DNA from: a virus
Virus record (IMG/VR): IMGVR_UViG_3300018876_001384
Coordinates: 1 to 46,311 of that record
Direction: 5' to 3' (one strand)
Length of the DNA: 46,311 nucleotides
Part shown: positions 28,446-45,328 of the stretch, piece after piece
Position numbering within the stretch: the stretch's first letter is position 1
Layout: every line of letters begins with the position of its first letter
Program-made: the position numbers and the translations under genes
The notes under the pieces: generated by a model
What the model saw: the letters and a program-made list of their open reading frames with translations, nothing else
Database searches by the model: none
What the model was told of the DNA's origin: nothing

Positions 28446-28864
28446 TGTCTACCTGCCCAAAAATCTTTATTAAAATGTTGTTTTTCTACACGAGTAGTTG
28501 TGGCTTTTTCTACTGGTTCGAGATCTGTACTCAGATAGATTCTTTCCATTTCAAATCCGATACTACGTCCAAAGAATATATTAGTAATATTAGGCACTTC
28601 CATTATTTCAAACATACGAGGATATGTTGTATTAATATCATCGATAATCATCTTTTTTATTTCTTCAAATGTATAAGGATCATTTGCACCAGGACTACGT
28701 ACCATAATAGCCAGTTGTCCTGCACGACTGGTTCTACGTTCTATAGGTGTTGCTACATCATTCTTATAAAAAATCTGATCTACAATAGCACGATGTCCAC
28801 TATTCCATGGCTGGAATCTTCCTAAAAACAATGCGGTATTTCTGGACCAATCTGCTATTTTCAT
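28442..28864 (-). CDS. nucleotidyltransferase, degenerate-motif paralogue
   Basis: A 140-residue relative of the gene at 27549. LFLGRFQPWNSGHRAIV near 12-28 aligns with its paralogue, but the first His of HxGH is Asn (NSGH), and the second motif reads TTTRVEK near 122-128 in place of ISATKIR. Both share AIMVRSPG/AIMVRDVG. The changes suggest altered or reduced activity, or a heteromer with the intact paralogue. Overlaps the kinase gene and the carbamoyltransferase gene by 4 bases each. Confidence 0.68.
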   Translation of the reverse strand: MKIADWSRNTALFLGRFQPWNSGHRAIVDQIFYKNDVATPIERRTSRAGQLAIMVRSPGANDPYTFEEIKKMIIDDINTTYPRMFEIMEVPNITNIFFGRSIGFEMERIYLSTDLEPVEKATTTRVEKQHFNKDFWAGRQ

Positions 28865-30345: not shown

Positions 30346-30934
30346 TGATTACCTTTGCTATTCGTCGATGACCAAGTTCCAATGGATGACCTCCAGGACC
30401 TTTCGCACAATCTCCTTGAAATTCAAGCATGCCGTCTGTGGGCCAACCTACGTAATACTTATTATCGATTTGATCCCATAGATATCTAAAATTTTCTTGG
30501 TATTCATCCCAATGCCCTTGTAGCCCTGCAACGTTTACAAACAGATAGCGTTGATTTTGTTGCTTTAAAAAAGCCTGTAGTGCTAACACTTGACAGATCC
30601 ATCTTTCGAAGCTAAACTGCTCATTGTAACTGTATTTAAAATAGTCTGGAACCCATGGCAGATCTCGACGATTATTATGATTAATACAAACAGGTTCGTT
30701 GTTTTGTGTTACTTCTATCCTATTAGGAAAGGGCCACGCAACAATAACCAGATCATACGATTGTCTTATCACTTGTTCTATAGTTAAACGAAAACAGCGA
30801 TCTGTGCTAGCTCCGCCTTTACCTAGATTGGTAACAGTTTGTTCTAATTTCTCACTGACCAGGTAAGGCCAAGCTACGTAACGGTTTTCTAGTTCTTCGC
30901 CAAACGTAAAACTGTCGCCAATGGTTAATATCAT
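30311..30934 (-). CDS. SGNH-hydrolase-like protein (GDSF type)
   Basis: A 207-residue protein with block I TIGDSFTFGEEL at 4-15, NLGKGGASTDR near 36-46 (block II Gly), VIVAWPFPNR near 63-72 and a C-terminal GHPLELGHRRIA giving the catalytic His. Compact SGNH esterase/acyltransferase, cytoplasmic. This is one of two in the window with the canonical GDS; it lies between the carbamoyltransferase and a GCS-type SGNH gene, so O-acylation of the same product is plausible. Confidence 0.75.
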   Translation of the reverse strand: MILTIGDSFTFGEELENRYVAWPYLVSEKLEQTVTNLGKGGASTDRCFRLTIEQVIRQSYDLVIVAWPFPNRIEVTQNNEPVCINHNNRRDLPWVPDYFKYSYNEQFSFERWICQVLALQAFLKQQNQRYLFVNVAGLQGHWDEYQENFRYLWDQIDNKYYVGWPTDGMLEFQGDCAKGPGGHPLELGHRRIAKVINEHIRNLSWLS

Positions 30935-31041
30935 TTGTAGATAAACGGATCTCTTTTGCGTAATGCCTTGAGCTTTTTACGATATTGAATTTCTAGTTTA
31001 ATACGATTATACATTCGCTTAAACCAATTTACTATGCACAT
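30931..31041 (-). CDS. very small basic protein, 36 aa
   Basis: Between two SGNH genes, a minus-strand frame from ATG 31041 to TGA 30931 encodes a strongly basic peptide (RIKLEIQYRKKLKALRKRD near 12-30). Its stop overlaps the next ATG as ATGA, and its start lies in the end of the upstream gene, the same packing as real genes here. ATG 31014 is an alternative shorter start (27 aa). Possible roles include nucleic acid binding or a peptide substrate; nothing proves either. Confidence 0.5.
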   Translation of the reverse strand: MCIVNWFKRMYNRIKLEIQYRKKLKALRKRDPFIYK

Positions 31042-31999
31042 CAAATGTCTCCTGTAATAATTCAGCGGCGGCGGCATGTGCTTCCTCTAGTGGATGCGTG
31101 GTGCCTACTGGGTATTTATTTTCGATTGCCCACTGGTAAAAACCTCTTGGTTGTAGATCGTCATCAATGATAGGCGCACTGCCATCTTCTTCTACCCATG
31201 TGTTACTTTCATCGTCCCAAGACCCGTAATTAGGTGGCCACCATTCGGGACGTTGATTTTTGTTTGCGTAAGGATTAGGCACAGGGAACCACCAAAACTT
31301 CTCAAAGTCTATTTCTTCATATAGCGTTAGTATAGTGTCATCTAGTCTTATATCTTTGTCTGCTACTGACCAAGGAGTAAATCCTTTAGGCATACTGGTT
31401 CTACGTTTTTGGGTGTTTACTTCTACAGTCCAATTATTAAAGATAATATTGTCAGCGGCAGTAAAAAGATATCTGATATTGTGTGCTTTTAAATAATTTT
31501 GTAATAATACTATTTCTTTAAGTGTAGTATATATTTCCCAATATTCGCTAATAGCAATATATTTGTAATAGCTTTTAGCAAAATCACTAACACCACTCAC
31601 CATGTCTCTTTTAATTGTATTGATTTGTGTTTTTAAAATTCCGTCATTTTTTGTGTGAAATTCTTGTTCTATTTCATGCAAATTATCAATGTCTTTGGTT
31701 GCCCATGAATTAATATCATGCCACGGAGATTTTCTAATACCGGTAGGAAATCCAAATCTAAACTCATATCTATTAGGGAAGGTCCATTGCACAAACACAA
31801 AGTCTGGACGGTGTAATCGACATGCATCCATTGTGGTTCGTGCTATTGCTTGATTGCTTGCACCACCAACAGCTACACAATGATATTCATGTTCTTTGCT
31901 TAATAGTGCAGGATAGGTCAACCGACTAGCACCTGTATGACGCATATCACTTAGTTCATTGCCGTAGATAAAACTACATCCATTTGCTACTATAATCAT
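31019..31999 (-). CDS. SGNH-like protein, GCS variant, 326 aa
   Basis: The longest of the five SGNH-like proteins. VANGCSFIYGNEL at 4-16 is block I with Cys in place of Asp; VAVGGASNQAIAR near 41-53 is block II; VFVQWTFPNRYEF near 68-80 resembles the WPFPNR segment of the gene at 30311; THPLEEAHAAAAELL near the C-terminus gives the His. A Trp/Pro-rich insert at about 235-275 distinguishes it. Overlaps the upstream gene by 26 bases. Confidence 0.65.
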   Translation of the reverse strand: MIIVANGCSFIYGNELSDMRHTGASRLTYPALLSKEHEYHCVAVGGASNQAIARTTMDACRLHRPDFVFVQWTFPNRYEFRFGFPTGIRKSPWHDINSWATKDIDNLHEIEQEFHTKNDGILKTQINTIKRDMVSGVSDFAKSYYKYIAISEYWEIYTTLKEIVLLQNYLKAHNIRYLFTAADNIIFNNWTVEVNTQKRRTSMPKGFTPWSVADKDIRLDDTILTLYEEIDFEKFWWFPVPNPYANKNQRPEWWPPNYGSWDDESNTWVEEDGSAPIIDDDLQPRGFYQWAIENKYPVGTTHPLEEAHAAAAELLQETFDVHSKLV

Positions 32000-33044
32000 A
32001 ACCTGGTCTCATAAAGTTAATCTGTTGTTCATAATAGTCTGAATCTGTCCAACAGTATTCGAAGTCAGCACTTGCTCGTCCTGTTTCAATTCGTACAATA
32101 TCTAAATGCTCACTAACAATAGACCATACTTCTTCAGGTACATCTGTACTAAAACTACGATTCATATTGACTTGTCCTACTTCATGAAAGCCGTAGTTGT
32201 ATTGTGTGTCGTCATGTCTGAACCCATTACGCTCTAACCATTCTGCATATTCATCCATACGCTGTTTGTGCCACGGATAATCTCCATTGTAGGTCACATC
32301 ACGACTCCATTCGATATCAAACTCTCCTGAATAATATCTTAGATGCGTGATTGCTTCACACATTGCTTCGTCAAGATCAGGTGCACCTTCATCTACAAAT
32401 ACTTCATATAAAGTTTTACCAATCTGTGTCCAATGCTGATATACAGTACCAAACGTGCGGTCATAGCGTGTTTTATCAAATGTACGTTTGTGTTCATCAG
32501 GATAGTCAAAGCGTGGAGCATTTAAAAATGTTGTGATCTGACTAGGACGAATCCATTGCGGTGCTTCTACTTTTTTCTTCTGGGATAACATCAGACTTTC
32601 TGCTTCATGGCAGATATTGTTTAGCTGTCGTATAGCAAACTTGGTAGGATAGTCTGCACGTCTATACCAATCGCTTAATTCCCACGCTTCACCTTGTAGT
32701 ACTTCAAAATGATTATGTAGTGCGTTCATAACATGTTGGTTAGGATTCAATCCATCACGCATGGTTTTAGGTGTAAAGATTTCTTTAATTTCGTATGTGC
32801 CATTAAAATGATCGTTAATAGTATCTTTAACCCATTGTAATTCTTTACACAAAAATTCTAACGAACGCGGTGCGTCCGGAAACCCCATAAAACAAAAATT
32901 CTTTTCTAAGTAAGGTTTACTATCTAGTAAATTGTTTAGTGCATTATACCATTTACTTGCCATTGGATGCTCTTGCACCTCAATAACATAGTCAACTGTT
33001 TTGCGCTTATCAAAAGGGTTTCTTAATACTACTCTTACATCCAT
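31974..33044 (-). CDS. unidentified protein, 356 aa
   Basis: A soluble protein rich in Trp, Tyr, Asp and His with no motif I can name. It contains a FCFMGFPDAPRSLEFLCKEL segment near 50-69, a central helical part, and a C-terminal region with DVTYNGDYPWHKQRMDEY near 255-272. ATG 33044 is preferred over 33053 because it overlaps the upstream stop as TAATG. Its place among radical SAM, SGNH and carbamoyltransferase genes suggests a part in the same pathway, perhaps as an enzyme of an undescribed family or a scaffold. Confidence 0.65.
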   Translation of the reverse strand: MDVRVVLRNPFDKRKTVDYVIEVQEHPMASKWYNALNNLLDSKPYLEKNFCFMGFPDAPRSLEFLCKELQWVKDTINDHFNGTYEIKEIFTPKTMRDGLNPNQHVMNALHNHFEVLQGEAWELSDWYRRADYPTKFAIRQLNNICHEAESLMLSQKKKVEAPQWIRPSQITTFLNAPRFDYPDEHKRTFDKTRYDRTFGTVYQHWTQIGKTLYEVFVDEGAPDLDEAMCEAITHLRYYSGEFDIEWSRDVTYNGDYPWHKQRMDEYAEWLERNGFRHDDTQYNYGFHEVGQVNMNRSFSTDVPEEVWSIVSEHLDIVRIETGRASADFEYCWTDSDYYEQQINFMRPGYDYSSKWM

Positions 33045-33253
33045 TACCACCATCCCATGTTGCGACCGTTACCTAATATAATCATCAAACAAGTTAATAC
33101 ATGTAACGCTATCCAAAAAGTGCGTAAAACCAATGCCTGTTTGACACTACGTTGTGAGATAGGTAAAAACTCAGGTTTATCATCGTCGGTAATACCAACA
33201 GGCATACCAACAACCCTAGCCCACATTTTTAAAAATTGTCTTTGTCCACTCAT
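33044..33253 (-). CDS. small membrane protein, 69 aa
   Basis: A protein with a polar N-terminal half and one hydrophobic segment at about residues 42-60 (VLRTFWIALHVLTCLMIILG), ending in a short Trp tail. A single-span membrane protein with the N-terminal part probably cytoplasmic (basic residues before the segment). Coupled to its neighbours by ATGA upstream and TAATG downstream. Family unknown. Confidence 0.65.
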   Translation of the reverse strand: MSGQRQFLKMWARVVGMPVGITDDDKPEFLPISQRSVKQALVLRTFWIALHVLTCLMIILGNGRNMGWW

Positions 33254-33420
33254 AAGTAAGGACCATCTTTGCGTTCGTTTGGCGGAATTTTATCAACACT
33301 GCCGTATTTTTTTATTAGTGCTTCATCACGACGTCGAGCATCTTTATATCCTAGTAAAAAAAGAATAACAATAAAAATTGTTATTACTATTAATCCTATG
33401 TATCCTGAAATATCGCTCAT
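33250..33420 (-). CDS. small membrane protein, 56 aa
   Basis: A 56-residue frame between the last radical SAM gene and the membrane protein at 33044. Residues 5-24 are hydrophobic (Ile, Leu, Val rich), followed by a basic cytoplasmic-looking KDARRRDEALIKKYG segment, giving one span with an inside C-terminus. Both junctions are ATGA overlaps (33251-33253 and 33417-33420), which strongly support it despite its size. Confidence 0.65.
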   Translation of the reverse strand: MSDISGYIGLIVITIFIVILFLLGYKDARRRDEALIKKYGSVDKIPPNERKDGPYL

Positions 33421-34715
33421 ATATTATCCCACCAATCAAGTGCTTCTTTTCTGTCAGATAAAATATCCCTTAGTATAAAAGAATCATTTCTAATCTTCTC
33501 TAATCTATGTATGCGATTTTTTCCTCGACGCAAGCCTTCTTCAAATTGGTCTGGCCATTGCTCTGCAAATGTAGGTCTGTTTTTTAGTTGCACCAATACG
33601 TCTTGCATTGCACCTTCACTGTCAGCAATCAACTCGTCCAGCCAAGGATCTAATACTTCACGTGGTAATGCCAAAGGTGATAGTACAATGTCTGGACTAA
33701 AACTAAAGACTACTTTAGCCAGTATGCCAACACCTAGTTGTCTTGCGAGTTCTTGGATTCTCTGGACTTCGAAGAGTCCTGGTAGTGTAAGAGTGAAGTC
33801 AATACGAACTTGGCGCGGGTGGTTGCTGATCTCAATTCCTTGATTGAAGTTCTCAAGCCACTTGTCAAAATTAAGACCTGTTCGAATATACTCTCCAATT
33901 CGTCCCGTGCCATCGATGCTTGCACATATTTGCCAGTCACGAAGCCGAGAAAGTATATCACGATACAGATTAATGCCACGATAATCAACCCTAGAAAGGT
34001 TAGTGTTATATCTAGCGTAAACATTTGGTCCATCTCCTAGCTCTATAATACGCGGCATGTATTTCCAATGTTGTTCATACATCAAGGGTTCGCCGCCTAC
34101 CCAATATACTTCTTCAACACGATGTTCTTCTACTGCTTGAGCAAATTCCTGCTCAATTTGTGTAGACTGAAATTGTTCAATTTGTTTTTTGATTTCTGGC
34201 TTCATCCAGTTATTTTTAGGATCATGCCAGTTAATCATATCGTGTTTGCGTTGTTCTGCCTCCCAACTACTGCTCAACATATCTCCGCACATACGACATT
34301 TAAAGTTGCAGAGGTTGCTAAAACGATAGTCCCAACTCACAGGCTCCATTGTGGTACGTCCTGTTTCGTCGGTGGCTTCCCATATGCTATTATATTTATG
34401 ACCAAACAGTTGGTTAAAATATGAGCGGTATACATCTGTATTTAACAGTTTGTTGTTGCATACTTGACATTCATCAAGTTCCTCACCTGCCATCATGCGC
34501 CTACGCACACTACGCATATGGTCACCATTCCAGTGTTCTTCTAGTGTGATAGGTGTGTATTCACCTGTGCCTGCGGCAGTGTCAATATATTGTTCGAAGT
34601 TTTGTGCAGGTTCGCGACTAGCACAACACAATCTACGTTCTGTCTGAGGACTTAGGTAAGTGTGTGTCCACGGTGCCATGCACAAATTTTGTGGTGCTCG
34701 TTGAGGTTTCTTCAT
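33417..34715 (-). CDS. radical SAM protein with N-terminal twitch/SPASM-like domain (F)
   Basis: A 432-residue radical SAM enzyme, last of six in the run. The N-terminal auxiliary-cluster domain has C12 (CMAPW), C30-C31 and C83-x2-C86; the core has C136-x3-C140-x2-C143 (CNFKCRMC) for the SAM-cleaving 4Fe-4S cluster and VGGEPLM near 210. In ordinary SPASM enzymes the auxiliary domain is C-terminal; here it comes first. The product and substrate are unknown; relatives with a C-terminal SPASM modify peptides or sugars. It overlaps the 2OG oxygenase gene by 4 bases. Confidence 0.85.
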   Translation of the reverse strand: MKKPQRAPQNLCMAPWTHTYLSPQTERRLCCASREPAQNFEQYIDTAAGTGEYTPITLEEHWNGDHMRSVRRRMMAGEELDECQVCNNKLLNTDVYRSYFNQLFGHKYNSIWEATDETGRTTMEPVSWDYRFSNLCNFKCRMCGDMLSSSWEAEQRKHDMINWHDPKNNWMKPEIKKQIEQFQSTQIEQEFAQAVEEHRVEEVYWVGGEPLMYEQHWKYMPRIIELGDGPNVYARYNTNLSRVDYRGINLYRDILSRLRDWQICASIDGTGRIGEYIRTGLNFDKWLENFNQGIEISNHPRQVRIDFTLTLPGLFEVQRIQELARQLGVGILAKVVFSFSPDIVLSPLALPREVLDPWLDELIADSEGAMQDVLVQLKNRPTFAEQWPDQFEEGLRRGKNRIHRLEKIRNDSFILRDILSDRKEALDWWDNI

Positions 34716-35266
34716 TCTTTGTCGTCAGTTTCTAATATAAAATTAATGTAAAAACTACGACGAATAACTCCTTTGGGAACATAATATTTCATACCATGAA
34801 ATGTTTGATGTGAACCTTCTAAACAGAATGCCCTATTAACTTTAGGGTCACAGTAGTAAGGGTATAACTTAATTCCATCTTGTACATAATATTCAGTGCC
34901 ACATAATGGATTTTCGGTTAGATATATGATAGCAATATTACGCACACTGTCAGGATCGTCATAGTGTAAACTATTAGTGTAACCTGTATAGTCTCGCCAT
35001 AATGTTCCTGCCACTAAACGTTTAAATGTGGGATAGTGATAACGTAATGTACGTTCTACTTCCTTTTCTAAGTCTGGATGATCTTGCCATTGTAGTCTTA
35101 TATTTTCTCTTTTGCATGTAGTTGCATTCAGTAGTTTTTGCAATTCCAATGGAACTTCGAATTCTTCTATACTAGTTGCAGGCAAATCGTAGTTCATACG
35201 AGTTACATATTTTAGAGATTCTTCGCTAAGAAAATCTTTTATTAGTTTTCCTGGATTATCCTTCAT
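34712..35266 (-). CDS. 2OG-Fe(II) oxygenase (prolyl-hydroxylase-like)
   Basis: A 184-residue dioxygenase with the iron ligands H101-x-D103 (LHYDD) and H157 (TFHGM) and the 2OG-binding arginine at 169/170 in RRSFYINF. The strand IAIIYLTENP and the GTEYY segment match phage and bacterial 2OG-Fe(II) oxygenases of the P4Hc type. It is embedded between two radical SAM genes, overlapping both by 4-11 bases, so a hydroxylation step in the same pathway is likely. Confidence 0.85.
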   Translation of the reverse strand: MKDNPGKLIKDFLSEESLKYVTRMNYDLPATSIEEFEVPLELQKLLNATTCKRENIRLQWQDHPDLEKEVERTLRYHYPTFKRLVAGTLWRDYTGYTNSLHYDDPDSVRNIAIIYLTENPLCGTEYYVQDGIKLYPYYCDPKVNRAFCLEGSHQTFHGMKYYVPKGVIRRSFYINFILETDDKE

Positions 35267-36473
35267 AGCCCATTGCCTTTGCTATTACAGTGTGTGTATC
35301 TAAAAAGCTCTGTTTGCGATATCTGTCGGTCTGCTTCATTAATGTAACAAAACGCTTGCCATCACCAGTAGGGCCATTCTTAATAAATTGTATAATGTTA
35401 TCTATCTCTTTTCTGTGCTTGGGTATAAAATTATCTTGAGTGAGTCTGCTAATTACCAAGTCCTTAGCTGTCTGTGTCATTTCTCCAATATTTTGATGAC
35501 GAGGATCATGTAACATATTAAAATGATGATAATCAAACTCTTGTGTGTTCATCCAATCGCATAGATCTTTTAAGTAATAAACATTTTGTGCGTTAATAGT
35601 CAAACATATCTGTAATTTGATGTTGTTTGTTTGTTCACGCAATTCTCTAAATCGAGCAATGTTTGCTTCTACTTCTGACCATATAGCACCATATCGTTCA
35701 TATTCAAAACGCTCGCCTACGTTGTCTATACTAAATGCAATCTCAACATACTTGAAATGACTCCATAAGTCAACAAATTCTTTAGGATAATGTGTGCCAT
35801 TTGTATTGTAGTGTATTTCAATGTTCTTTGCGTAGCCAAGATCAACTGCTTGCTGTAGTAATTGAAAATGTTCTTTAATCATAAATGGCTCACCACCAGT
35901 AAATTCGAAGTAACGAATCTGCGGTAGTAGTATTTCCATGTTCTGCCAAAACACCTGAGTTTCCCTAGGCCATTTGCCTTGTTTTAACCATGTGTAAGCA
36001 ATGTGCTGTTTATAGTCTGCCTTAGGGTGTTCTTTGATATAATCAATTTCTTCTCTTGCCCATTTAGAACTAGACCAAGAACCGCAAATACGACATTTTA
36101 AGTTACAGATATTTCCTAGTTTTAGATCCGCAAACCACAAACTGTCTGGTGTAGTATTCTGCCAATCCACATGCGGACGTTCATGTTTGAAACGCACATC
36201 TGTGTTCATGCGTTTACTTGTGCGTCCTGCATCTTCTTCATCCCAACAGCGTGAGCATGTCTTGGGTTTTTCTCCTCGCAAAAACTGTTCACGCAGTTGT
36301 TGCATGTATTCACTTTTATAAACATCTTCTAATGTGTCGTTGTTTAGATTATACTTTGTACCATCTGGTTTAACAATTTCATCCATAGCTAAACAGCAAG
36401 GACGAGTAGTACCCAATGGAGTTGTTTCCATACTCACCCAAGGTAGCATACAAATAGTTTTAGGCAGTTCCAC
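35256..36473 (-). CDS. radical SAM protein with N-terminal twitch/SPASM-like domain (E)
   Basis: A 405-residue protein starting almost at its auxiliary domain: C8 (CMLPW), C26-C27 and C73-x2-C76, then the core C123-x3-C127-x2-C130 (CNLKCRIC) and FTGGEPFM near 190-197. The LPW...G...PCC...C..C order is that of a SPASM domain placed before the barrel. YNTNGTHYPKEFVDLW near 226-241 is a normal barrel strand and loop of the family. Substrate unknown. Confidence 0.86.
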   Translation of the reverse strand: MELPKTICMLPWVSMETTPLGTTRPCCLAMDEIVKPDGTKYNLNNDTLEDVYKSEYMQQLREQFLRGEKPKTCSRCWDEEDAGRTSKRMNTDVRFKHERPHVDWQNTTPDSLWFADLKLGNICNLKCRICGSWSSSKWAREEIDYIKEHPKADYKQHIAYTWLKQGKWPRETQVFWQNMEILLPQIRYFEFTGGEPFMIKEHFQLLQQAVDLGYAKNIEIHYNTNGTHYPKEFVDLWSHFKYVEIAFSIDNVGERFEYERYGAIWSEVEANIARFRELREQTNNIKLQICLTINAQNVYYLKDLCDWMNTQEFDYHHFNMLHDPRHQNIGEMTQTAKDLVISRLTQDNFIPKHRKEIDNIIQFIKNGPTGDGKRFVTLMKQTDRYRKQSFLDTHTVIAKAMGYEG

Positions 36474-37794
36474 GAGCAGCCTCCAATTCTGGGAACGTAG
36501 CCCAAAAGTCTTCTTTGCGAATACGATCTAGTTTTGCAACTTCTTCTTCAAATCGTTTCCAATAAGTTTCGTAGTTGTTTGAAGAGTTCATAAAGTTAAT
36601 AGCACTTTCAAATCCTGTCGTTGCTCTACGCAGATCGTCTTGTGGATCTAGCCATTCGATGTGTTTGCGATAAGCAGGTTCAATAACATCACGTTTAAAC
36701 CATTCAGGAAAAATATCAATCCTATACCAGTCTGGTGATTGACAGATGTTTACGTTAAAGTCTTTAGGTTTAATAAATCCTCGTTCACTCCAATCACGAT
36801 GGAAGTCTAGTACATGCAATACGTTTTGGCTGGTAACTGTTGCACTAATATAAAAGTCTACATGTGGTACTTCTACCATCATACGTTCACGATTACTAAT
36901 TGTTTGTTCCCAATCAGTGCCTTTGCGTATTAGTTCTCCCTGTGCGTTCATGCCATCTAGACTAGCGCCTACGTTTACAGTTTTAAAGTGTTTCCAATAT
37001 TCAAACACATGCTTGTTTTTGTATCGTAGTTCACTGAAATTCGTGTTATATATCAGTCGCACATCAGTCTTGCCAAGGTCAATCAAACGTTCCAGTAGAT
37101 AATAATGCTCTTTCATAATTAATGGCTCGCCGCCTGCAAAGTATACTTGTTCGAGATGTTCGATGTGTGGTTCCATCTGTGCTAACATGCCATCTTCTGA
37201 CCCTGTAGTATATTCTACTCGTTCCATTGGACGTTTCAATACATCAGGCTTTACACCATATAATTTAACATGGTCGTTAAACCAATTACTACTAAAAATA
37301 GGCCCACAGCTACGGCATCTGAAATTGCACAAATTTGAGAACCTAACGTCCCAATAACGTAGTTTAAATTCTGGATGATGTCCTTCATTAGTTGTTTGCT
37401 CCACTTCTTTAATTAAATGTCCATAATTTCTATTAGCATCGTTACGCATACTAAAGAAGCCTGCTTGTTCTTGTTCGTAACATTTAGTACACTCAGAGCA
37501 TTCACGCTCCTCTAGCATGTTCTTACGCATAGTTTTATACTTGTCTTGATTCCATACTTCTTCCATAGTATGCTGGCGCAAGTCTCCAACAGGATGCCAA
37601 TAGTCTCCCAAACAACAAGGATAAGCACGACCATCTGGGAACGCATGCATATGTACCCAAGGCAACATACAAAATCGTTCGCTTTTCACAAGCCTGAAAT
37701 ACTGCTCTTCTGACAGTTCATTAATTTCAATAAAATGAGGAGCACGTTCGTTGTAATCGTATTTTTTATAAAAGTCTTTCTTATCCGAGGTCAT
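36460..37794 (-). CDS. radical SAM protein with N-terminal twitch/SPASM-like domain (D)
   Basis: A 444-residue member with a 40-residue N-terminal extension before the auxiliary domain: C42 (CMLPW), C60-C61, then C99, C102 and C105 (one cysteine more than its paralogues). The core is C156-x3-C160-x2-C163 (CNFRCRSC) with FAGGEPLIM near 218. It ends with the shared R..DFWATFPE motif also found in genes C and A. The extra cysteine could change the auxiliary cluster. Overlaps its neighbours by 14 bases on both sides. Confidence 0.86.
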   Translation of the reverse strand: MTSDKKDFYKKYDYNERAPHFIEINELSEEQYFRLVKSERFCMLPWVHMHAFPDGRAYPCCLGDYWHPVGDLRQHTMEEVWNQDKYKTMRKNMLEERECSECTKCYEQEQAGFFSMRNDANRNYGHLIKEVEQTTNEGHHPEFKLRYWDVRFSNLCNFRCRSCGPIFSSNWFNDHVKLYGVKPDVLKRPMERVEYTTGSEDGMLAQMEPHIEHLEQVYFAGGEPLIMKEHYYLLERLIDLGKTDVRLIYNTNFSELRYKNKHVFEYWKHFKTVNVGASLDGMNAQGELIRKGTDWEQTISNRERMMVEVPHVDFYISATVTSQNVLHVLDFHRDWSERGFIKPKDFNVNICQSPDWYRIDIFPEWFKRDVIEPAYRKHIEWLDPQDDLRRATTGFESAINFMNSSNNYETYWKRFEEEVAKLDRIRKEDFWATFPELEAARGTA

Positions 37795-39139
37795 TATACC
37801 ACTCCGCTAAATTAGGAAACGTTTCTGCAAAGTTTTTACCTCGACGTTGGTCATACTGCGAGTAAAAACGTTTAAAGTCGTTGTGTAGTTTAGGACGTTC
37901 AAATGATGTCTCACTGTGAGGAGTCTTAACTACATCTAAATAATCTATCAGTCTCTGTATGTGATTAAGTTCATGCTCATGTAACATAATATGATTATTA
38001 TATGTACTAAACCAATGTTCTAATCGTTGTTTATGATGGGTTCGTATTTCATCTGGTAATACCAATGCACTTTGAAAACTAGGAAAACGTAGAATGTTTA
38101 GTGTAAAGTTAGGAAAGTCCCTACCAAAAGCACTTTTCTTTTCTAACATCCAAGTTAAAAATTCTGGCAAACTTTCCAAACACAATGCATTGATAGTGTT
38201 CATTACATGTAATCCACGTAGTTTGCCACTGCGAATTAACAAGTCCATGTTTGCGGTCCACTGTTCCCACTTTAGACCATCACGGATATATTCAGCATGT
38301 GGACCCATGCTTTCGTTACTGGTGTATAGATCAATTTCTAAGTAGTCTGTAGCTTCTAGTAGACGTTCTACTTTGTCTGATTCAAAACCAAGGTTACTGT
38401 TAATAGCAAGGCGTGTTTGACTACGCCCTGGATTGTCTTTAAACCAATCTAACAAGTCCCATGTATGTCCACTCATTAAAGGCTCACCACCTGTAATGCG
38501 TAGCTCTTGTAGTGTTCGATGTAGATCACTATCCCACCAACGAAAAAATGCTTCTACATAAGGATTAGTTTCGTCATAGCGATAAAGTTGTGCTTCGTTG
38601 TGTGGGTGCGTAAAGTGATTGCGTCCATCGCTTTGTAGTTCAGTATATGGACCATGCTTTTTAATATCCTTAACCCAAGTGCTTGAGAACGCTGGGTTAC
38701 AGTAACTACATGCAAACTGACAGGTTCTATCAAATGCAATCTCTAATGTGCGTAGATCAATATCCTCATTGGGATCTGTATCAAATGCTGTTTGTAATAA
38801 TTCGTCACTATAGATAACACTTTTATAGGTACGGTCACTGATGTTGTTGCGTCCGATGTCTTCAATCTTCCAGCAGTATTCACAACCAGGAGGTCGTTCT
38901 CCTGCCTGCATCTGTGCTCGATCTTGTTTCTTTTGTGCAGAGTTGTGCAGTGCTTTAGGATTGAATCGCACTTCTTCAACATTTACTTTGTGTGCAGGCG
39001 GATGATGACAACTTGTAGTCATGCCTGATCCTAACCAAATAGTAGCGTTGTACCATTTAGCACCACAGAAGCTAGAGCTTTTGGTATCTAGTACACGCTG
39101 TCTAAATTCTAAATCTGTTTCGTTTTGTTGTTTAGGCAA
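37781..39139 (-). CDS. radical SAM protein with N-terminal twitch/SPASM-like domain (C)
   Basis: A 452-residue protein closest to gene A. Its auxiliary domain differs from E, D and F: C25 (CGAKW), a single C44 followed by HHPP, and C86-x2-C89-W; thus one Cys of the CC pair is His. The core is C140-x3-C144-x2-C147 (CQFACSYC), with ITGGEPLM near 217. It ends RRGKNFAETFPNLAEWY. The C/A pair probably arose by duplication and may form a distinct subtype. Confidence 0.86.
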   Translation of the reverse strand: MPKQQNETDLEFRQRVLDTKSSSFCGAKWYNATIWLGSGMTTSCHHPPAHKVNVEEVRFNPKALHNSAQKKQDRAQMQAGERPPGCEYCWKIEDIGRNNISDRTYKSVIYSDELLQTAFDTDPNEDIDLRTLEIAFDRTCQFACSYCNPAFSSTWVKDIKKHGPYTELQSDGRNHFTHPHNEAQLYRYDETNPYVEAFFRWWDSDLHRTLQELRITGGEPLMSGHTWDLLDWFKDNPGRSQTRLAINSNLGFESDKVERLLEATDYLEIDLYTSNESMGPHAEYIRDGLKWEQWTANMDLLIRSGKLRGLHVMNTINALCLESLPEFLTWMLEKKSAFGRDFPNFTLNILRFPSFQSALVLPDEIRTHHKQRLEHWFSTYNNHIMLHEHELNHIQRLIDYLDVVKTPHSETSFERPKLHNDFKRFYSQYDQRRGKNFAETFPNLAEWYNDLG

Positions 39140-40265
39140 AATACGCCTCCATTTCTGGTATTATTTCCAGTATACTATTCTTTCTAAATGCATCACGTTG
39201 CTGTATATAATCAATAAACTCTTTCCACATCAACGGTTTTGCTGTTGATCTTAAACTGTTAATAAACACTTCTAAGTTTTCATTAGTCTTGTCTAGTATA
39301 AACTTGCCTCGATATTTGTCTAAACGACTAGCCGCAACGTGTGCTAATTCGTTGGGTAAGTTATATGTAGCCAACATCTCTGGATGATTAACAAAACTTA
39401 GATGTATAATATACTGATTTTCGATTACCCAGTCAAACAGTTTTGGCAAAGTTAATACATTCAGATTACCAATCGTTGTATTGATAAACCAGCTTACATT
39501 ATCTATCTGTTTTACACGTTCAATAGCATCAATAATGTTTTCCCATTTACAAGGATATCTGAAGTAATAATTATCATCCTGATACGCATCAATGCTTAAC
39601 ATAAGTTCAACATGTTTAAATTTTTTAAAGATTGCTTCCCATGTACTATCAAATTTTGTGCCGTTGCTTTGAACTTTTAGTGTAGTATTTTTAACTAAAT
39701 CCGTCGATAGCTCATTGAGGATCTTTCTGCTACGCGGAACCATCATCGATTCACCGCCTCGTAGATCAATAGTATCTAACCCATTAATAAACAAAGCATT
39801 GAGAGTTTCTTCTAAGCGATCATCTGTAATAGGAGTAACTTCATCATAGCGTTTGTTACTTTGAGGAACTAATCCCATCATACGGTTTTCTGCCGCATAT
39901 GTTGAACTATCTCGTGGTCTACAAATTAAACACTTGGCATTACATAAGTTGCTTACATGAAACTCAACGTCTATAGGCAACTGTTCAAAATTTGCCAAAC
40001 CCCAACGTTCGATACTGTCCTGTCTACGACTGATCAGTCCTTGAGATTCGGCGGCGTAACAACTTTCACATTCTATACGATGCTTACCTGTTGACATGTC
40101 TTGACGAACTGTATTCATATAGTCACTATGCCAATAATTGTCTATAGAAACATCCTTAATATTATATGGTGTACTAGAACTATGGGAACAACACAAAGCA
40201 ATAGTGCCGTCCATTCTAATAACACTGTGTTTCCAAGGCAGAGGGCAGTAACTATCGTTGTGCAT
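39132..40265 (-). CDS. radical SAM protein with N-terminal twitch/SPASM-like domain (B)
   Basis: The smallest of the six, 377 residues. Auxiliary domain: C7 (CPLPW), C25-C26, C66-x2-C69; core: C108-x3-C112-x2-C115 (CNAKCLIC). The usual GGEP is GGES (LRGGESMM near 166-173), an unusual change in a loop that contacts SAM. It ends with IIPEMEAYF, related to the FPE motif of its paralogues. Overlaps genes A and C by 14 and 8 bases. Confidence 0.85.
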   Translation of the reverse strand: MHNDSYCPLPWKHSVIRMDGTIALCCSHSSSTPYNIKDVSIDNYWHSDYMNTVRQDMSTGKHRIECESCYAAESQGLISRRQDSIERWGLANFEQLPIDVEFHVSNLCNAKCLICRPRDSSTYAAENRMMGLVPQSNKRYDEVTPITDDRLEETLNALFINGLDTIDLRGGESMMVPRSRKILNELSTDLVKNTTLKVQSNGTKFDSTWEAIFKKFKHVELMLSIDAYQDDNYYFRYPCKWENIIDAIERVKQIDNVSWFINTTIGNLNVLTLPKLFDWVIENQYIIHLSFVNHPEMLATYNLPNELAHVAASRLDKYRGKFILDKTNENLEVFINSLRSTAKPLMWKEFIDYIQQRDAFRKNSILEIIPEMEAYFA

Positions 40266-41658
40266 GATACCTACATTCTTTCCAAAACTCTTCCATCTCA
40301 GGAAAGGTTTCTAAAAAGTTAGTTTCACGCCGACGATCATGTTCACTAAAGAATCTATAAAAGTCTGCACGTTGCTTTTGCAAGTAATCTTCGCCTAGTT
40401 CTTTGCCTTTACGCATCCATGCAATATCACGACGCAGACGCTGTACTTCATAGTCTTTGAATCCGTGTAAGGGATTGTCTTCTGTTTGCAGATTTTGTTC
40501 CATCCAGTCAGCAATGTCTTCTAGTTTTTCAGCATAGGGCCAAGGCAGTATCTGTAAACTCTGCCAATAGGGTTGACGAAGTAGAGGAGTATCAAACCAA
40601 ACACGCTGATAGGTTTTACTATGAACACGTCTAAGTTCTAGTATCCAAGCCAGCAAACGTTTAAGTCCTGGAACACTGAGGTTGTTCATTGTGATAATGA
40701 ATGTTAGACTGTTGCGCTCTGGCACTTCGCTTAGGTAACGTACTACGTTGTGTGCCATACGACTATAATTTAGCCCATTGCGAATATATTCTGCTTGTTT
40801 GGCTTCGCCTGTATCCAAACTCACATACTGCATAAAGTGTTCAATTTGTGTGCTACACAAACGCTTTACATAGCCTATGTATTTTTCAAATAGCTTTGGC
40901 TCTACGCTAAAGTTTGATGTCACGTTTAGATGTAGCTCTGGATTAGGCAACGCTAGCACATAATCAAACACACGATAGGTGTTGTTATCCATTAGTGGTT
41001 CGCCACCTGTCATACGAAAATGTTTTAGGTGTGGATATAGTTCAGGCCACCATTCCCAAAACGCATCCACATATGGATTGTTTTCTCTCTGCGGAATAGG
41101 ACGTCTACGACCTGTAAAATGTTCAGGTGCATTGTGCGGAGTGCTGGTAGGATATGCTCCGTATTTCTTAATCTCTTTCATCCAGGTTGAACTAAATTGT
41201 GGCGAGCAATAACTACACTGAAGATTACACGCATGATTAAAGTTTACTTCAACATAACTAGGCATCCAGTCTTCATCGCCTGTGCTGTTAACAATACTAT
41301 CGTAATCACTAGCGGCCCAAGGTTCTCCACTGCGATAGTGACGATCACTTAGGTTGCCTGTATCTTCGATGTTCCAACAGTATTGACATTCTGCAGGACG
41401 CTGTTTACTCAGCATTACTTTACGCTGTTCTTTTTTATGATCCGTGTTGTGTAGAAATGCAGGATTCTTTTTAACTGCTTCAGCATCAATATGATGCAAG
41501 GGAGGATGGTAGCAACTATTGTTTAGCCCTGTGGGTAAATGTAAACTAACCTGTTTCCATTTGGCTAAACAAAGTCCTTCGCCGAGATTTTCTTTCATCC
41601 ATTCAGCATTAAACATAAACTTACTTTTATTGCCTACTGACTCATCACCTTTATTCAT
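40252..41658 (-). CDS. radical SAM protein with N-terminal twitch/SPASM-like domain (A)
   Basis: A 468-residue protein, first of the six transcribed. Auxiliary domain: C30 (CLAKW), C49 followed by YHPP, C91-x2-C94-W; core: C144-x3-C148-x2-C151 (CNLQCSYC), and MTGGEPLM near 214-221. It shares with gene C the SC(H/Y)HPP block, the C.YCW.IED.G block and the FPE C-terminus. ATG 41658 is chosen because it overlaps the upstream stop as TAATG; a longer frame to 41733 would translate the upstream gene's DNA in another frame and is rejected. Confidence 0.86.
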   Translation of the reverse strand: MNKGDESVGNKSKFMFNAEWMKENLGEGLCLAKWKQVSLHLPTGLNNSCYHPPLHHIDAEAVKKNPAFLHNTDHKKEQRKVMLSKQRPAECQYCWNIEDTGNLSDRHYRSGEPWAASDYDSIVNSTGDEDWMPSYVEVNFNHACNLQCSYCSPQFSSTWMKEIKKYGAYPTSTPHNAPEHFTGRRRPIPQRENNPYVDAFWEWWPELYPHLKHFRMTGGEPLMDNNTYRVFDYVLALPNPELHLNVTSNFSVEPKLFEKYIGYVKRLCSTQIEHFMQYVSLDTGEAKQAEYIRNGLNYSRMAHNVVRYLSEVPERNSLTFIITMNNLSVPGLKRLLAWILELRRVHSKTYQRVWFDTPLLRQPYWQSLQILPWPYAEKLEDIADWMEQNLQTEDNPLHGFKDYEVQRLRRDIAWMRKGKELGEDYLQKQRADFYRFFSEHDRRRETNFLETFPEMEEFWKECRYHAQR

Positions 41659-41939
41659 TAGTACCATCCAACGGCTATACCAAAGCCAAATACATTTACA
41701 CAAGCAAAATACATTGTTAATACAAAAACCCAAGCAGATCCTCTACGATAACTAGCATATGCTTGTGCAACACTGCCAATAAAAAATCCAGGATATACAA
41801 CACGCATGTCCGGAGCATCTGCATTGATAGCAAGAGTTAAACTTGCGCCAACAGTAAAGATAAAACTAATCAATTCAAAGTAGAATGCAGTTTTATCACT
41901 CTCATAACTCTGCTTCCAGAACGCTTTTATTTTTTCCAT
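41658..41939 (-). CDS. small multi-span membrane protein, 93 aa
   Basis: After a short basic N-terminus (EKIKAFWKQSYESDK) three hydrophobic segments are seen at about residues 20-38, 48-60 and 69-90, with YPGFFIGS between. Probably an inner-membrane protein with three spans. Both ends are TAATG overlaps with the DUF59-type gene and radical SAM A. Family not recognised with certainty; it might be a small transporter half or an anchor for the modification enzymes. Confidence 0.65.
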   Translation of the reverse strand: MEKIKAFWKQSYESDKTAFYFELISFIFTVGASLTLAINADAPDMRVVYPGFFIGSVAQAYASYRRGSAWVFVLTMYFACVNVFGFGIAVGWY

Positions 41940-42241
41940 TAATACCATCCTAACATCATGCGTGTTTCTTCAGGAACCATCTCTATAGAGAATGGTGGAT
42001 CAAATGTTGTATCAATTACAACTGTGTCGACTTCAGAGGTATAGCCTGCTTGCTGAATATCTGAAACAATTTGATCAGCAAAAGGACAAAATGCACTAGT
42101 CAAAGTATGTGTTATAGTAACTTGCTTTTTCTCTTCGTCAACATCTATATTATATATTAATCCAAGGTCATATACATTAACGCTTATTTCAGGATCATAT
42201 ACTTGTTTAAGATTTGATATTATGTTTTCCTTATCTATCAA
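41939..42241 (-). CDS. MIP18/DUF59-family Fe-S cluster assembly protein
   Basis: A 100-residue protein of the family of SufT, PaaD and the eukaryotic MIP18, which help load 4Fe-4S clusters into target enzymes. Seen: the signature YDPEISVNVYDLGLIYNI at 15-32 and the reactive C52 in SAFCPFADQI. The C-terminal acidic extension ends WY. It lies directly upstream of six radical SAM enzymes that each need two or more clusters, so dedicated cluster delivery to them is a strong inference from context. It starts 3 bases after the upstream stop. Confidence 0.82.
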   Translation of the reverse strand: MIDKENIISNLKQVYDPEISVNVYDLGLIYNIDVDEEKKQVTITHTLTSAFCPFADQIVSDIQQAGYTSEVDTVVIDTTFDPPFSIEMVPEETRMMLGWY

Positions 42242-42244
42242 AAA

Positions 42245-43162
42245 TCACCAACCTTCAATACGTCTAATAACATCAATCTCTTTAGTCATTAGTTCTAGGT
42301 TTTTGTGACCAGTACTATAATGATACTTGAAGAACGCACTTTGTTTGTCGTCAAGTTCAATAATATTAAGTCCAAGTCTGTTGTTAAGCAATTCAGTATA
42401 TTCTATAATGTTACTTGCATCTTTCAAAAATTCGTCATAGATGCCTTCGAGTAAATCAAAGTCCTGCACTTGTGTATGATCCCAATCTGTGAGCATGGTT
42501 TTATATGTGCCATACCTAGCTCCCCAAATTGCATACTCGCCGTGTTCTACGTCACGTCCAATGGTTTGCCAAATCTGCAAGTGATCAAGGTTACGCTTTT
42601 TTGCGGCATCATTGAACTCTTGCAGACTCGGCTTGCGTCCTCGATCCAAACACATTTTAACCCCCTCTCGGAACCCTGCCCGCCAGGCATGATATTGGTC
42701 TCCATTAGGGTACGTTGTGCTGTAGCAGTTGTGCATAGGGTAATATGTTTCCTCGAAACAGAACTCTACGCTCGTTTCGTCACTCCCATCACTTGCTTCA
42801 TGAGTACGCATTTGATCGACAAAACCTTTACTCCAAACACTCATACCACCATTACCGTACATAAGTCCGTTGATATGGTTACGAGCTTTCCATCGAAATG
42901 CACAATCGTGATCTGGCGTTTCAATTTGAAGATTAAAAAACTCTGCATCAGGCAAATTATCACCGTCAATTAACACAAAGAAGTCTGTATCGCTAGCATC
43001 TCCTGCGGCTTTATGTGCGGCGTCAGAACCTTTGACGTTGTCTACACGTTTCGCCCAAGGCACTAGGTTTTGTATTTTAATCCAAAACTCTTCCTTCTGA
43101 GGTTCGTCGTAACTGAGATAGATGCAATCTAAATCAGCGACATCAGTGATGCTTGAAGCCAT
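42245..43162 (-). CDS. glycosyltransferase-like protein with DxD motif
   Basis: A 305-residue protein with a GT-A-like N-terminal half: strand CIYLSYDEP, a helix, the linker KGSDAAHKAAGDASDTDFF and then LIDGDNLPD near 79-87, the DxD metal/nucleotide-sugar motif. HINGLMYGNGGMSVW near 116-130 and HAWRAGFREGVKM near 178-190 align with the C-terminal unit of the 1134-aa protein at 21658, which lacks the DxD. Donor and acceptor unknown. Head of the tight run leading to the Fe-S and radical SAM genes; overlaps the upstream gene by 20 bases. Confidence 0.7.
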   Translation of the reverse strand: MASSITDVADLDCIYLSYDEPQKEEFWIKIQNLVPWAKRVDNVKGSDAAHKAAGDASDTDFFVLIDGDNLPDAEFFNLQIETPDHDCAFRWKARNHINGLMYGNGGMSVWSKGFVDQMRTHEASDGSDETSVEFCFEETYYPMHNCYSTTYPNGDQYHAWRAGFREGVKMCLDRGRKPSLQEFNDAAKKRNLDHLQIWQTIGRDVEHGEYAIWGARYGTYKTMLTDWDHTQVQDFDLLEGIYDEFLKDASNIIEYTELLNNRLGLNIIELDDKQSAFFKYHYSTGHKNLELMTKEIDVIRRIEGW

Positions 43163-43442
43163 ATGTTTGAGTCTCCAGTCTTGTTGAATTTGTTAATATA
43201 CTAGCATGTCCTTTTACACTAGTATAGCCTTTAGATGATCGAACTAAGGCAAAGTCGTCTGTTGTATGATTTACTCTTGTTAGTTTACCATTAATCACAC
43301 GCATTGACTTGTAGCTTGCACGATCATATATCTCTTTACTGATACGAATATAGTTTCCTGGCAAATTTTCGTTGGTCATACAAGTAACTTTGCCAGTTTC
43401 ATCATAATATAATCTATATTCAATTGTAGAGTTCTTGTTCAT
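43143..43442 (-). CDS. conserved phage protein, 99 aa
   Basis: A small soluble protein beginning with IEYRLYYDETGKV near 7-19 and ENLPGNYIRISKEIYD near 25-40. I recall a YRLYYD..G.V..(Y/M)T.E...GNY...(D/S)...Y pattern in hypothetical proteins of marine T4-like phages, often near structural genes. The C-terminal third is Thr/Ser rich. Overlaps both neighbours by about 20 bases. Confidence 0.72.
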   Translation of the reverse strand: MNKNSTIEYRLYYDETGKVTCMTNENLPGNYIRISKEIYDRASYKSMRVINGKLTRVNHTTDDFALVRSSKGYTSVKGHASILTNSTRLETQTYGFKHH

Positions 43443-44274
43443 ATTCTTTAATCAATTCTTTAACTTTAAATGTTTTATCATGATAATGCACAGGGTATAA
43501 CTGTTGTACATTATTGATTCGCAAATCAGCTAAGTTGTTTTCAACATGTACAGTTTTGTAAATGTCAATGTTGTCTGCCCATCCTTGTATTGCAGGTTTC
43601 ATATGTGCAAACTTGAAAAAGTCCAGTGAGGGAATATAACAAGGACGTTCCATCATTGCACAAACGATTGCATAAACTACATCAGTAGTAGGTCTATCAT
43701 CACGTACATTGTGCAGAGCTTTATCTCTAATAGAATCCCAGTTTTCAAAAACCTGTTGTGCTAATTGAAAGAACTTTGTTGAAAAAACACTGTATCTAAA
43801 ATACATCATGCCATTGTAAACATCAGGCAAACTGTTTTCATCGAACAATTTTCGATATCGTCTACTAGTGCTGGGCTTTTGCTGGTAATCAACTACTCCG
43901 TGGCTTAGTACTACATCTTGCAGTTGTAAAGCTCTCCACCAGTGTTCAATACTGCGAGTGAAAAGCAAATCTGCTTCGAGCTTGATAGTTTCTTTGAAAG
44001 GTGTTAGATAAAAAGTTTGCCATTCATTGGCAAGTTTCCAAGTATCCTTACTAGCACTATCAATGTCGAGAGTAATAACATAATCGAACACACGGTGTTG
44101 ATCTTGAGTTATTTGTGAATGGGTCAACTCATCAACTACAATAGCATATAAACTATTGGGCTGAGTTGTTTTAATATTTAGTCCTTGTAGGTATGCCAGC
44201 TCAAGATAATTTACATCGCTGTTTTGTGCAACAGTTAAAAACCCACGTTGTGCTTGATGTGGTTGTTTACGCAT
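43420..44274 (-). CDS. glycosyltransferase-like protein (GT-A fold, paralogue 1)
   Basis: A 284-residue protein related to its neighbour at 44267. It opens with GFLTVAQNSDVNYLELAYLQ near 13-32, then a strand ending AIVVDELTH, a KLEAD segment near 99 where the related gene has a DGD, and a C-terminal HVENNLADLRINNVQ. The shared ..(A/N)..SDV(D/N)Y start resembles glycosyltransferase family 8-like proteins, but DxD is not clear (EAD). ATG 44274 is chosen; longer frames read through the neighbour. A perfect promoter lies 77 bases upstream. Confidence 0.6.
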   Translation of the reverse strand: MRKQPHQAQRGFLTVAQNSDVNYLELAYLQGLNIKTTQPNSLYAIVVDELTHSQITQDQHRVFDYVITLDIDSASKDTWKLANEWQTFYLTPFKETIKLEADLLFTRSIEHWWRALQLQDVVLSHGVVDYQQKPSTSRRYRKLFDENSLPDVYNGMMYFRYSVFSTKFFQLAQQVFENWDSIRDKALHNVRDDRPTTDVVYAIVCAMMERPCYIPSLDFFKFAHMKPAIQGWADNIDIYKTVHVENNLADLRINNVQQLYPVHYHDKTFKVKELIKEYEQELYN

Positions 44275-45001
44275 ACTCAAATCCGTTCTGCAAATATCGT
44301 TTATCGTGTAGATGTAGATTAGCACGTGGTAATACATATGCACGTTCTTTATTATATACTAGAATACGATGTTTGTCAACTACCATTCTGTTAATTTCAC
44401 CACTTATGGTCATGATAGGCCAAGGAACACGACAACTCATGTTTTCTGAATAGCCATTGACAATCCTATCCGCAATCGTAAACGTTGCATCATTTCGAAA
44501 AATACTGCTCTGTAGCTTGTATAAAGCCCTATAGTAACTATAGTTGTGTTGCACCATACCAGCAACTTCAAACAGCATACGGGCTTTGCTGGTGCGTTTA
44601 AACGCTATTACAGTAGCCCACAGCATTGGTCCGATTGCATATGGTCCCATTGTGTCGTTCACTTGTTCATTGATATAGATATGCTTGTGTGATATAGCAT
44701 AATCTTCAACTGTGTCGAGAACTTTAAGCAAACTGTCATCAAATACTAGATAATCACCATCCAACACCAATGTTTCGTCATACGGCGATAACTCGTAGGC
44801 ATTACATCTGCCTCCGTTATGCCATTCAGTTACTGCTCCACTTACCAAGCGTTTGTTTTGTCCTAGAGTTCCTTGGACAATAGTAGTTGGCAAACCCATA
44901 TGTTGTTTGATTAGTTTTGCGTTTAGTTCAGCAATCTTAACATAATCAACGTCACTGGTGTTTGTAGCAAATATTAATACGCCTCTAGACTTTTCTGACA
45001 C
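44267..45001 (-). CDS. glycosyltransferase-like protein (GT-A fold, paralogue 2)
   Basis: A 244-residue protein with LIFATNTSDVDYVKIAELNA near 9-28 (first strand and helix), LVSGAVTEWHNGGRCNAYEL near 52-71 and LVLDGDYLVFDDS near 78-90 with a D-x-D (DGD) and a further DD. Compared with paralogue 1 it keeps the metal motif. Substrates unknown. Overlaps the following gene by 8 bases and the preceding one by 17. A consensus promoter for the downstream genes lies inside its coding sequence at 44351-44379. Confidence 0.65.
   Translation of the reverse strand: MSEKSRGVLIFATNTSDVDYVKIAELNAKLIKQHMGLPTTIVQGTLGQNKRLVSGAVTEWHNGGRCNAYELSPYDETLVLDGDYLVFDDSLLKVLDTVEDYAISHKHIYINEQVNDTMGPYAIGPMLWATVIAFKRTSKARMLFEVAGMVQHNYSYYRALYKLQSSIFRNDATFTIADRIVNGYSENMSCRVPWPIMTISGEINRMVVDKHRILVYNKERAYVLPRANLHLHDKRYLQNGFEYA
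44351..44379 (-). promoter_or_regulatory. exact-consensus sigma70-type promoter inside a coding sequence
   Basis: On the minus strand TTGACA (44379-44374), a 17-base spacer and TATAAT (44356-44351), both exact. The -10 box ends 76 bases before the ATG at 44274, so it should drive the long minus operon from that gene on. Confidence 0.85.
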
Positions 45002-45293
45002 TTTTGAGTTCCTGATGCTTTACATGCCAATCATTCATCACTGATTGGTAACGTTCACGAGCAAGATCCATAAACTTTTGACGGTTTATTGGAATAGGAT
45101 TGCTGTAAACATCTTCTAGGAACAAATCTTCTTGAGGCCATGTTTCAACAAACGCCATTAATGATGGAGTAAGATGAAATAGACCACCTTCAAAAGGCAT
45201 ATGTAGCTCTGTTACAATCTTCTCTCGAAGAGCTTGCTTGTTCTTTTGGTAATCGGTTGCTTGTTTTACTTGATTTACAATTTCTTCAGTCAT
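44985..45293 (-). CDS. conserved phage protein, 102 aa
   Basis: A soluble, helical protein with TWPQEDLFLEDVYSNPIPIN near 52-71 followed by RQKFMDLARERYQSVMNDWH and an ELKSVRKV tail. From memory the ETWPEEDLFLEDVY...VNR..F..LA...Y..V...W block occurs in uncharacterised or structural proteins of marine T4-like phages. ATG 45293 is used; the frame extends to 45320 through the terminator, but that part is not protein-like. There is no ribosome-binding site, and the promoter -10 box ends only seven bases before ATG. Confidence 0.7.
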   Translation of the reverse strand: MTEEIVNQVKQATDYQKNKQALREKIVTELHMPFEGGLFHLTPSLMAFVETWPQEDLFLEDVYSNPIPINRQKFMDLARERYQSVMNDWHVKHQELKSVRKV

Positions 45294-45299
45294 GACTAT

Positions 45300-45328
45300 A
45301 GTATATAACAAAAAAGCCACTTTTGCAA
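45300..45328 (-). promoter_or_regulatory. possible promoter giving a leaderless transcript
   Basis: On the minus strand TTGCAA (45328-45323), a 17-base spacer and TATACT (45305-45300). Transcription would start at about the ATG at 45293. The -35 box lies in the loop of the upstream terminator. Confidence 0.4.

Follow-up and report, generated by a model that had tools for sequence, protein, structure and literature searches.

Groups of radical S-adenosylmethionine (SAM) genes have been described in several phages. Campylobacter phages CP220 and CPt10 carry an interchangeable module of five radical SAM genes (PMC2853527); the Aeromonas giant phage 332-Vera has eight such genes among its tail genes (PMC12390700); the host recognition cluster of pelagimyophages, described in 2020, brings together tail fibres, GT8-type glycosyltransferases and radical SAM cassettes (PMC7029224); and the T4-like environmental genome TARA_ERS488813_N000010, reported in 2017, encodes 12 radical SAM genes together with ATC and paaD (PMC5332604). 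Here, we examine a run of six radical SAM genes, A to F, in a 46,311-base virus record from IMG/VR (IMGVR_UViG_3300018876_001384), the whole of which we call the window. We find that five of the six, A, C, D, E and F, form a conserved core in uncultured T4-like phages, accompanied by a constant set of partner genes and interspersed with cassettes that are swapped between viruses.

Six N-terminal-twitch radical SAM genes and their five-gene core

The original prediction described six radical SAM paralogues with CxxxCxxC and GGE(P/S) motifs, each with a cysteine block of the SPASM/twitch type at its N-terminus, and we verified both the motifs and the coordinates. All six genes lie on the minus strand, with overlaps of a few to 14 bases between neighbouring genes, and a 184-residue gene (34712-35266) separates E from F. 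CxxxCxxC is present in all six proteins, GGEP in five and GGES in B, and in each a C..(P/K)W...C(C/H/Y)...CxxC block precedes CxxxCxxC. The proteins match NF033640, the NCBIfam family 'twitch domain-containing radical SAM protein' (N_Twi_rSAM), far beyond chance: against a curated cut-off of 170 bits they score 283-389 bits (E-values 5e-84 to 2e-116), with nearly the whole profile covered. The core orthologues A (40252..41658, 311 bits) and C (37781..39139, 312 bits, with A as its nearest paralogue) carry an N-terminal twitch domain; the core orthologues D (36460..37794, 389 bits), E (35256..36473, 354 bits) and F (33417..34715, 295 bits, the most conserved) carry an N-terminal SPASM domain, as does the accessory protein B (39132..40265, 283 bits). 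The Pfam SPASM model matches the N-terminus of B, D (48.5 bits), E and F, and the same scan gave no match to it in A and C. The C and D profiles align with 99.7% probability across 405 columns, their four auxiliary cysteines falling in register, and the four N-terminal and three radical SAM cysteines are invariant within each core group (alignments of 40 sequences for D and 22 each for A, C, E and F), which bears out the N-terminal placement of the twitch/SPASM-like block. The paralogues are distant from one another, with identities to A of only 22-34%.

A structural model of D (predicted local distance difference test, pLDDT, 92.6) has radical SAM enzymes as its best PDB matches, several of them with SPASM/twitch domains: GDGT-MAS, CteB, BlsE, anSME, viperin and MoaA. 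The template-modelling (TM) scores, normalized by query length, are low at about 0.3; the swapped order of the domains may, we guess, contribute to this. Searches of the PDB by sequence found no relatives of D, nor of the conserved partner protein Y32 described below.

To define the core, we searched IMG/VR with D, which returned 58 relatives, and with C, from which the best 80 of at least about 600 were taken. Removal of duplicates left 123 distinct contigs, 73 of which extend 10 kb to both sides and are counted here as complete neighbourhoods. A, C, D, E and F, together with Y32 and the putative glycosyltransferase GT42, are found in all 73, and two further glycosyltransferases (GT43 and GT44) and a carbamoyltransferase are each found in 72; the order of the core genes is constant in the maps inspected. 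B occurs in 11 of the 73, at no more than 36% identity. In the nearest relative (L008), A, C, D, E and F are 91-96% identical to those of the window, yet B is only 36% identical and there is no oxygenase gene. Because of this pattern, and because B, the oxygenase and the DUF59 gene are infrequent overall, the conserved unit is a set of five enzymes with swapped cassettes and not, as first proposed, six paralogues with an oxygenase in their midst.

Since the C and D queries could bias this result, we sidestepped them with reciprocal searches begun from F, Y32 and GT42. The F-selected loci contain A, C, D, E, Y32 and the NodU-like carbamoyltransferase in 42 of 42 cases; the Y32-selected loci contain C, D, E and F in 46 of 46 and A in 42 of 46; and the GT42-selected loci contain A and C in 42 of 43 and D and E in 41 of 43, with F often lying beyond the stretch covered. 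Among 17 large relatives, conservation follows the order gp23 (85% identity), F (70%), A (68%), C (67%), GT42 (66%), carbamoyltransferase (62%), D (58%), E (55%), Y32 (48%) and tail protein (40%), so that the radical SAM enzymes are better conserved than the tail protein they adjoin.

The cassettes amid and around the core are of several kinds. The 2-oxoglutarate (2OG)/Fe(II)-oxygenase-like gene between E and F (34712..35266, minus strand) encodes an HxD...H...RxS motif, as the prediction had it, but its product has no Pfam match of its own; 1 of 10 relatives matches 2OG-FeII_Oxy weakly. In its family H101, H157 and R169 are invariant and HxD is mostly kept, and the gene is present in few of the complete neighbourhoods. 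A DUF59/PaaD-like iron-sulfur (Fe-S) assembly protein (41939..42241, minus; PF01883, 54.7 bits) occurs in 9 of the 73 loci and a small membrane protein (41658..41948, minus) in 2. Of the partners suggested for the radical SAM genes, then, the carbamoyltransferase co-occurs with them constantly and DUF59 and the oxygenase in a minority of loci.

Carriers, cellular relatives and origin

The carriers are uncultured T4-like phages. The large relatives (26 records of 104-357 kb) each encode between 5 and 17 N-terminal-twitch genes, and gp23, the T4 major capsid protein, is present in 21 of the 26, a count of relatives and not of the 46-kb window itself; where positions were compared, gp23 lies roughly 50-60 kb from the cluster. 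A-type Fe-S carriers in 10 of the 26 and DUF59 in 5 suggest a real demand for Fe-S clusters. A cyanophage identity was rejected, a psbA-type gene being present in 0 of 19 records. Isolated phages include no close relatives: apart from one 8-kb single-cell record, we found only Vibrio phages K566/K567 and KVP40. The cultivated K566 has four divergent N-terminal-twitch radical SAM genes (L146:11965-18701), and KVP40 has three members of the family, all under the NF033640 cut-off. Both phages could be used as models in the laboratory.

The T4 late promoter core, TATAAATA, occurs 0 times in the window against 4.6 expected, and 55 times on both strands in 2.3 Mb of relatives (the 123 related loci), a scarcity that suggests avoidance. 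As a late promoter upstream of the core genes it is almost never present, and its strong overall depletion makes it uninformative there. Two other features of the window deserve mention: a TRAP-type periplasmic solute-binding-like protein (10227-11195, minus), unusual for a phage, and QueD-like (1391-1867, plus) and QueE-like (2535-3467, plus) genes, possibly for 7-deazaguanine chemistry and independent of the radical SAM genes.

In a tree of 204 proteins, made by a quick method and with some long branches, the core genes fall into separate clades, one per gene, and in each of these the core viral sequences group together. For this reason the five core paralogues appear to be ancient and non-redundant rather than recent copies. 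The original prediction had asked for a phylogeny to test duplication within phages; recent tandem duplication is rejected for the core, given five separate clades common to viruses and Bdellovibrionota. Local extra radical SAM copies do exist, for example in L039, L079 and L120. A chromosomal locus of a Bdellovibrionota bacterium (Bacteriovoracaceae, L156:6040-18036) contains eight N-terminal-twitch genes, which include an orthologue of each of the five phage enzymes and have ribosomal-protein and obg-like genes as neighbours; this locus is sister or near-sister to the viral sequences in the A, C, E and F clades. Of 144 Bdellovibrionota genomes, 41 have N-terminal-twitch genes, up to 11 apiece, and F has relatives in 12 of 291. 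Transfer between such bacteria and phages, in either direction, is likely. As for whether relatives stand singly and unlinked, those in viruses are linked and mostly not single, but in Bacteroidota and Alphaproteobacteria many, indeed most, are single genes.

Partner genes and the proposed pathway

The run of genes to which the core belongs overlaps nearly throughout and starts directly after tail-fibre-like structural genes. At its head lies Tail45 (45363..46292, minus), a Gly/Ser/Thr-rich tail-fibre-like structural protein whose counterparts in relatives come after other structural-looking open reading frames (ORFs). It is followed by the small conserved protein U45 (44985..45320, minus), the glycogenin/GT8-like glycosyltransferases GT44 (44267..45001, minus) and GT43 (43420..44343, minus), a second small conserved protein, U43 (43143..43442, minus), and GT42 (42245..43162, minus), a putative GT-A glycosyltransferase with a DGDN motif in which D66 and D68 are invariant. 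A joint GT43/GT44 profile matches glycogenin, a GT8 enzyme, with an E-value of 1.8e-4, and a PDB sequence search with GT42 gave no convincing match. Beyond F are Y32 (31974..33053, minus), whose model (pLDDT 91.2) has no fold match in the PDB and whose matches in BFVD are uncharacterised phage proteins only, one of them from the cultured Agrobacterium phage Atu_ph07, and then a NodU/TobZ/NovN-like O-carbamoyltransferase (28861..30345, minus) with Pfam domains Carbam_trans_N (PF02543) and Carbam_trans_C (PF16861); its PDB matches are NovN (9e-51, the closest), GdmN and TobZ.

Between Y32 and the carbamoyltransferase lie two semi-conserved genes, for an SGNH-like protein recognized by eye (31019..31999, minus; no Pfam match) and an SGNH/GDSL-like hydrolase (30311..30934, minus; Lipase_GDSL_2, E-value 1.8e-7, just under the cut-off). 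The variable slots of related loci hold ORFs that by eye resemble glycosyltransferases, SGNH proteins and sugar dehydrogenases, and they look like a glycan island. Adjoining the carbamoyltransferase, a consecutive series at 27050-28864 (minus) consists of a peptide deformylase-like gene, two NMNAT-like nucleotidyltransferase genes and an AAA/kinase-like gene, of which the kinase and NMNAT-like genes turn up again in relatives. Further on is a 1134-residue protein (21658..25062, minus) with several W.P[DN]...PPY.Y.F..Q.Q repeats and, by eye, a C-terminal GT42-like domain; it lies beside the cluster in 45 of 46 Y32-selected and 40 of 42 F-selected loci.

We propose, tentatively and as a reading somewhat short of probable, that these genes specify a multi-step pathway to a carbamoylated, radical-modified glycan that probably sits on the virion tail. 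The five core enzymes would catalyse successive steps of this one pathway, each cleaving SAM at its CxxxCxxC cluster to yield a 5'-deoxyadenosyl radical that abstracts hydrogen, with the predicted N-terminal cluster handling the substrate or an electron. Building and capping of the same product would fall to the glycosyltransferases and the carbamoyltransferase. As virions assemble, the product would most likely be attached to the tail or adhesin of the phage itself, and the cassettes amid the core (B, the oxygenase, SGNH proteins, more glycosyltransferases and methyltransferases) may diversify the decoration between phages. A glycan is favoured because of the matches of GT43/GT44 to glycogenin and of the NodU-like protein to NovN, GdmN and TobZ, and because of the glycan-island-like variable slots; the virion is favoured as the site because the run is linked to tail genes. 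A more specific version, a five-enzyme radical cascade in which each enzyme performs a different C-H transformation on a single virion decoration and Y32 acts as scaffold or substrate carrier, is speculative, and we consider it unlikely.

The notion of a pathway gains from the linked, fixed-order orthologues in viruses, the reciprocal searches and the separate clades, but it loses the obligatory place once given to B, the oxygenase and DUF59, all of which are optional. Several observations weigh against our proposal. Conservation shows that each enzyme is kept, not that all act on a common substrate. The large relatives share 85% identity in gp23, which marks them as rather closely related viruses, and part of the co-occurrence reflects their membership of a single lineage. 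More distant viruses retain GT42 with other subsets of radical SAM genes: L320, which also retains the tail gene, has a single D-like gene on the opposite strand, L175 combines A with three D-like genes, and D is missing from L279. The five-gene set is thus fixed inside one lineage and reshuffled outside it. Among cellular relatives, L156 has no recognizable glycosyltransferases or carbamoyltransferase alongside its five orthologues, so the radical SAM set may work without glycan genes. A Paenibacillus N-terminal-twitch gene (L167:9992-11284) lies within what by eye is an acyl carrier protein (ACP)/ketosynthase/adenylation-like cluster, a context suggestive of natural-product biosynthesis in this cultured bacterium, and a PqqD-like gene, also by eye, is near the cellular relatives L165 and L179.

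The strongest rival is peptide modification, in which the five enzymes are protein maturases (catalysing epimerization or forming thioethers, cyclophanes or formylglycine) that rework a structural protein of the phage, for instance the tail fibre or the W.P[DN] repeat protein, while the glycosyltransferases serve a separate purpose. Most characterized SPASM/twitch enzymes act on peptides, anSME and CteB, the latter a sactipeptide enzyme, are among the structures in the PDB closest to D, PqqD-like genes lie near some Bdellovibrionota relatives (by eye), and a tail gene and a repeat protein are both close to the cluster. The candidate substrates, however, fit poorly: Tail45 has no conserved cysteine and is 40% identical between phages, which would make it an odd substrate for five highly conserved enzymes, and the W.P[DN] protein varies between relatives in both repeat number and residues. 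The small conserved ORFs U43 and U45, considered as precursors of ribosomally synthesized and post-translationally modified peptides (RiPPs), were rejected as not precursor-like, since they have neither conserved cysteines nor a repeated core; no RiPP precursor gene with a leader and a cysteine-rich or repeated core was found in this assessment of U43 and U45, with ORFs under 60 residues left unsurveyed, and Pfam scans of the window proteins scanned revealed no RiPP recognition element (RRE) or PqqD-like domain. We judge this rival doubtful, if a serious contender.

The pathway might instead alter the surface polysaccharide (O-chain) of the host during infection, for example to exclude competing phages; O-chain alteration has been proposed for the GT8-type glycosyltransferases of the pelagimyophage host-recognition cluster (PMC7029224). 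Here it seems improbable: the continuity of the run with tail genes would suggest late expression, we recognized no flippase, polymerase or conserved membrane glycosyltransferase in the core, and the sole small membrane protein is the one confined to 2 of 73 loci. We give still less credence to the synthesis of a diffusible small molecule (a modified nucleotide, sugar or cofactor) directed at the host or at competitors; a weak resemblance to viperin and MoaA and the Paenibacillus relative in an ACP/ketosynthase cluster speak for it, but we recognized no export or self-protection gene, and the position of the cluster is linked to tail genes. Hypermodification of phage DNA, with the carbamoyltransferase and glycosyltransferases acting on modified bases and the radical SAM enzymes tailoring them, is very improbable even though a phage carbamoyltransferase makes 5-carbamoyloxymethylcytosine (PMC8670742) and QueD/QueE-like genes are in the window, given that the modifying carbamoyltransferases of that study co-occur with Asp177 enzymes while the ones on unmodified contigs adjoin glycosyltransferases. 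Cytosine-DNA hypermodification in particular is disfavoured because the window and 10 relatives encode thymidylate synthases with Asn177, as in canonical enzymes of the dUMP type; 9 of 19 relatives show no thymidylate synthase.

Comparison with described systems

This analysis singles out the most constrained use of the N-terminal-twitch family, in which T4-like phages that are widespread but uncultured combine five orthologues with a fixed set of partners, and it provides a defined gene list for joint expression, with the virion tail as a clear candidate place for the product. If the enzymes act sequentially, a virus would run an unusually long oxygen-sensitive radical pathway, and the presence of as many as 17 such genes in T4-like environmental phages, along with Fe-S assembly factors of their own, would be easier to understand. 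A cascade with Y32, if it exists, would be a multi-step radical SAM pathway encoded by a virus, and its product a kind of virion modification that is not known from other systems.

The original prediction called the array an undescribed system, and this holds in part. The literature searched contains no description of a linked five-orthologue radical SAM set in phages with fixed partners and gives no function for the N-terminal-twitch family, but NF033640 is a named family and T4-like phages rich in radical SAM genes have been reported (PMC7029224, PMC5332604). NF033640 accommodates all six window proteins above its cut-off and over nearly their full length; it is defined per protein, whereas here the members form a linked phage set. 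The TARA genome is likewise T4-like, with many radical SAM genes and with Fe-S assembly genes, one of them DUF59/PaaD-like, but that report, in the portion covered here, counts genes and does not resolve orthologues, the N-terminal twitch or partners (PMC5332604). The pelagimyophage cluster is similar in its tail fibres, GT8-type glycosyltransferases, radical SAM genes and T4-like setting, but is hypervariable and has its radical SAM genes as cassettes, whereas here five of them and their partners are constant (PMC7029224); a Pfam neck-protein model used to check the VrlC/gp14 position matched nowhere, controls included. The CP220/CPt10 module resembles the present one in grouping several radical SAM genes in a lytic phage, but its partner is a glycine amidinotransferase, and the CP220 proteins match part of NF033640, mostly the radical SAM core, at no more than 31 bits and not the N-terminal twitch. 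Phage 332-Vera also has radical SAM genes within a tail structural cluster, but belongs to the Chimallinviridae and is not T4-like. Compared with the literature searched, what is new here is the resolution into orthologues, the fixed five-gene core and its partners, Y32, the exceptions outside the main lineage and the link to Bdellovibrionota.

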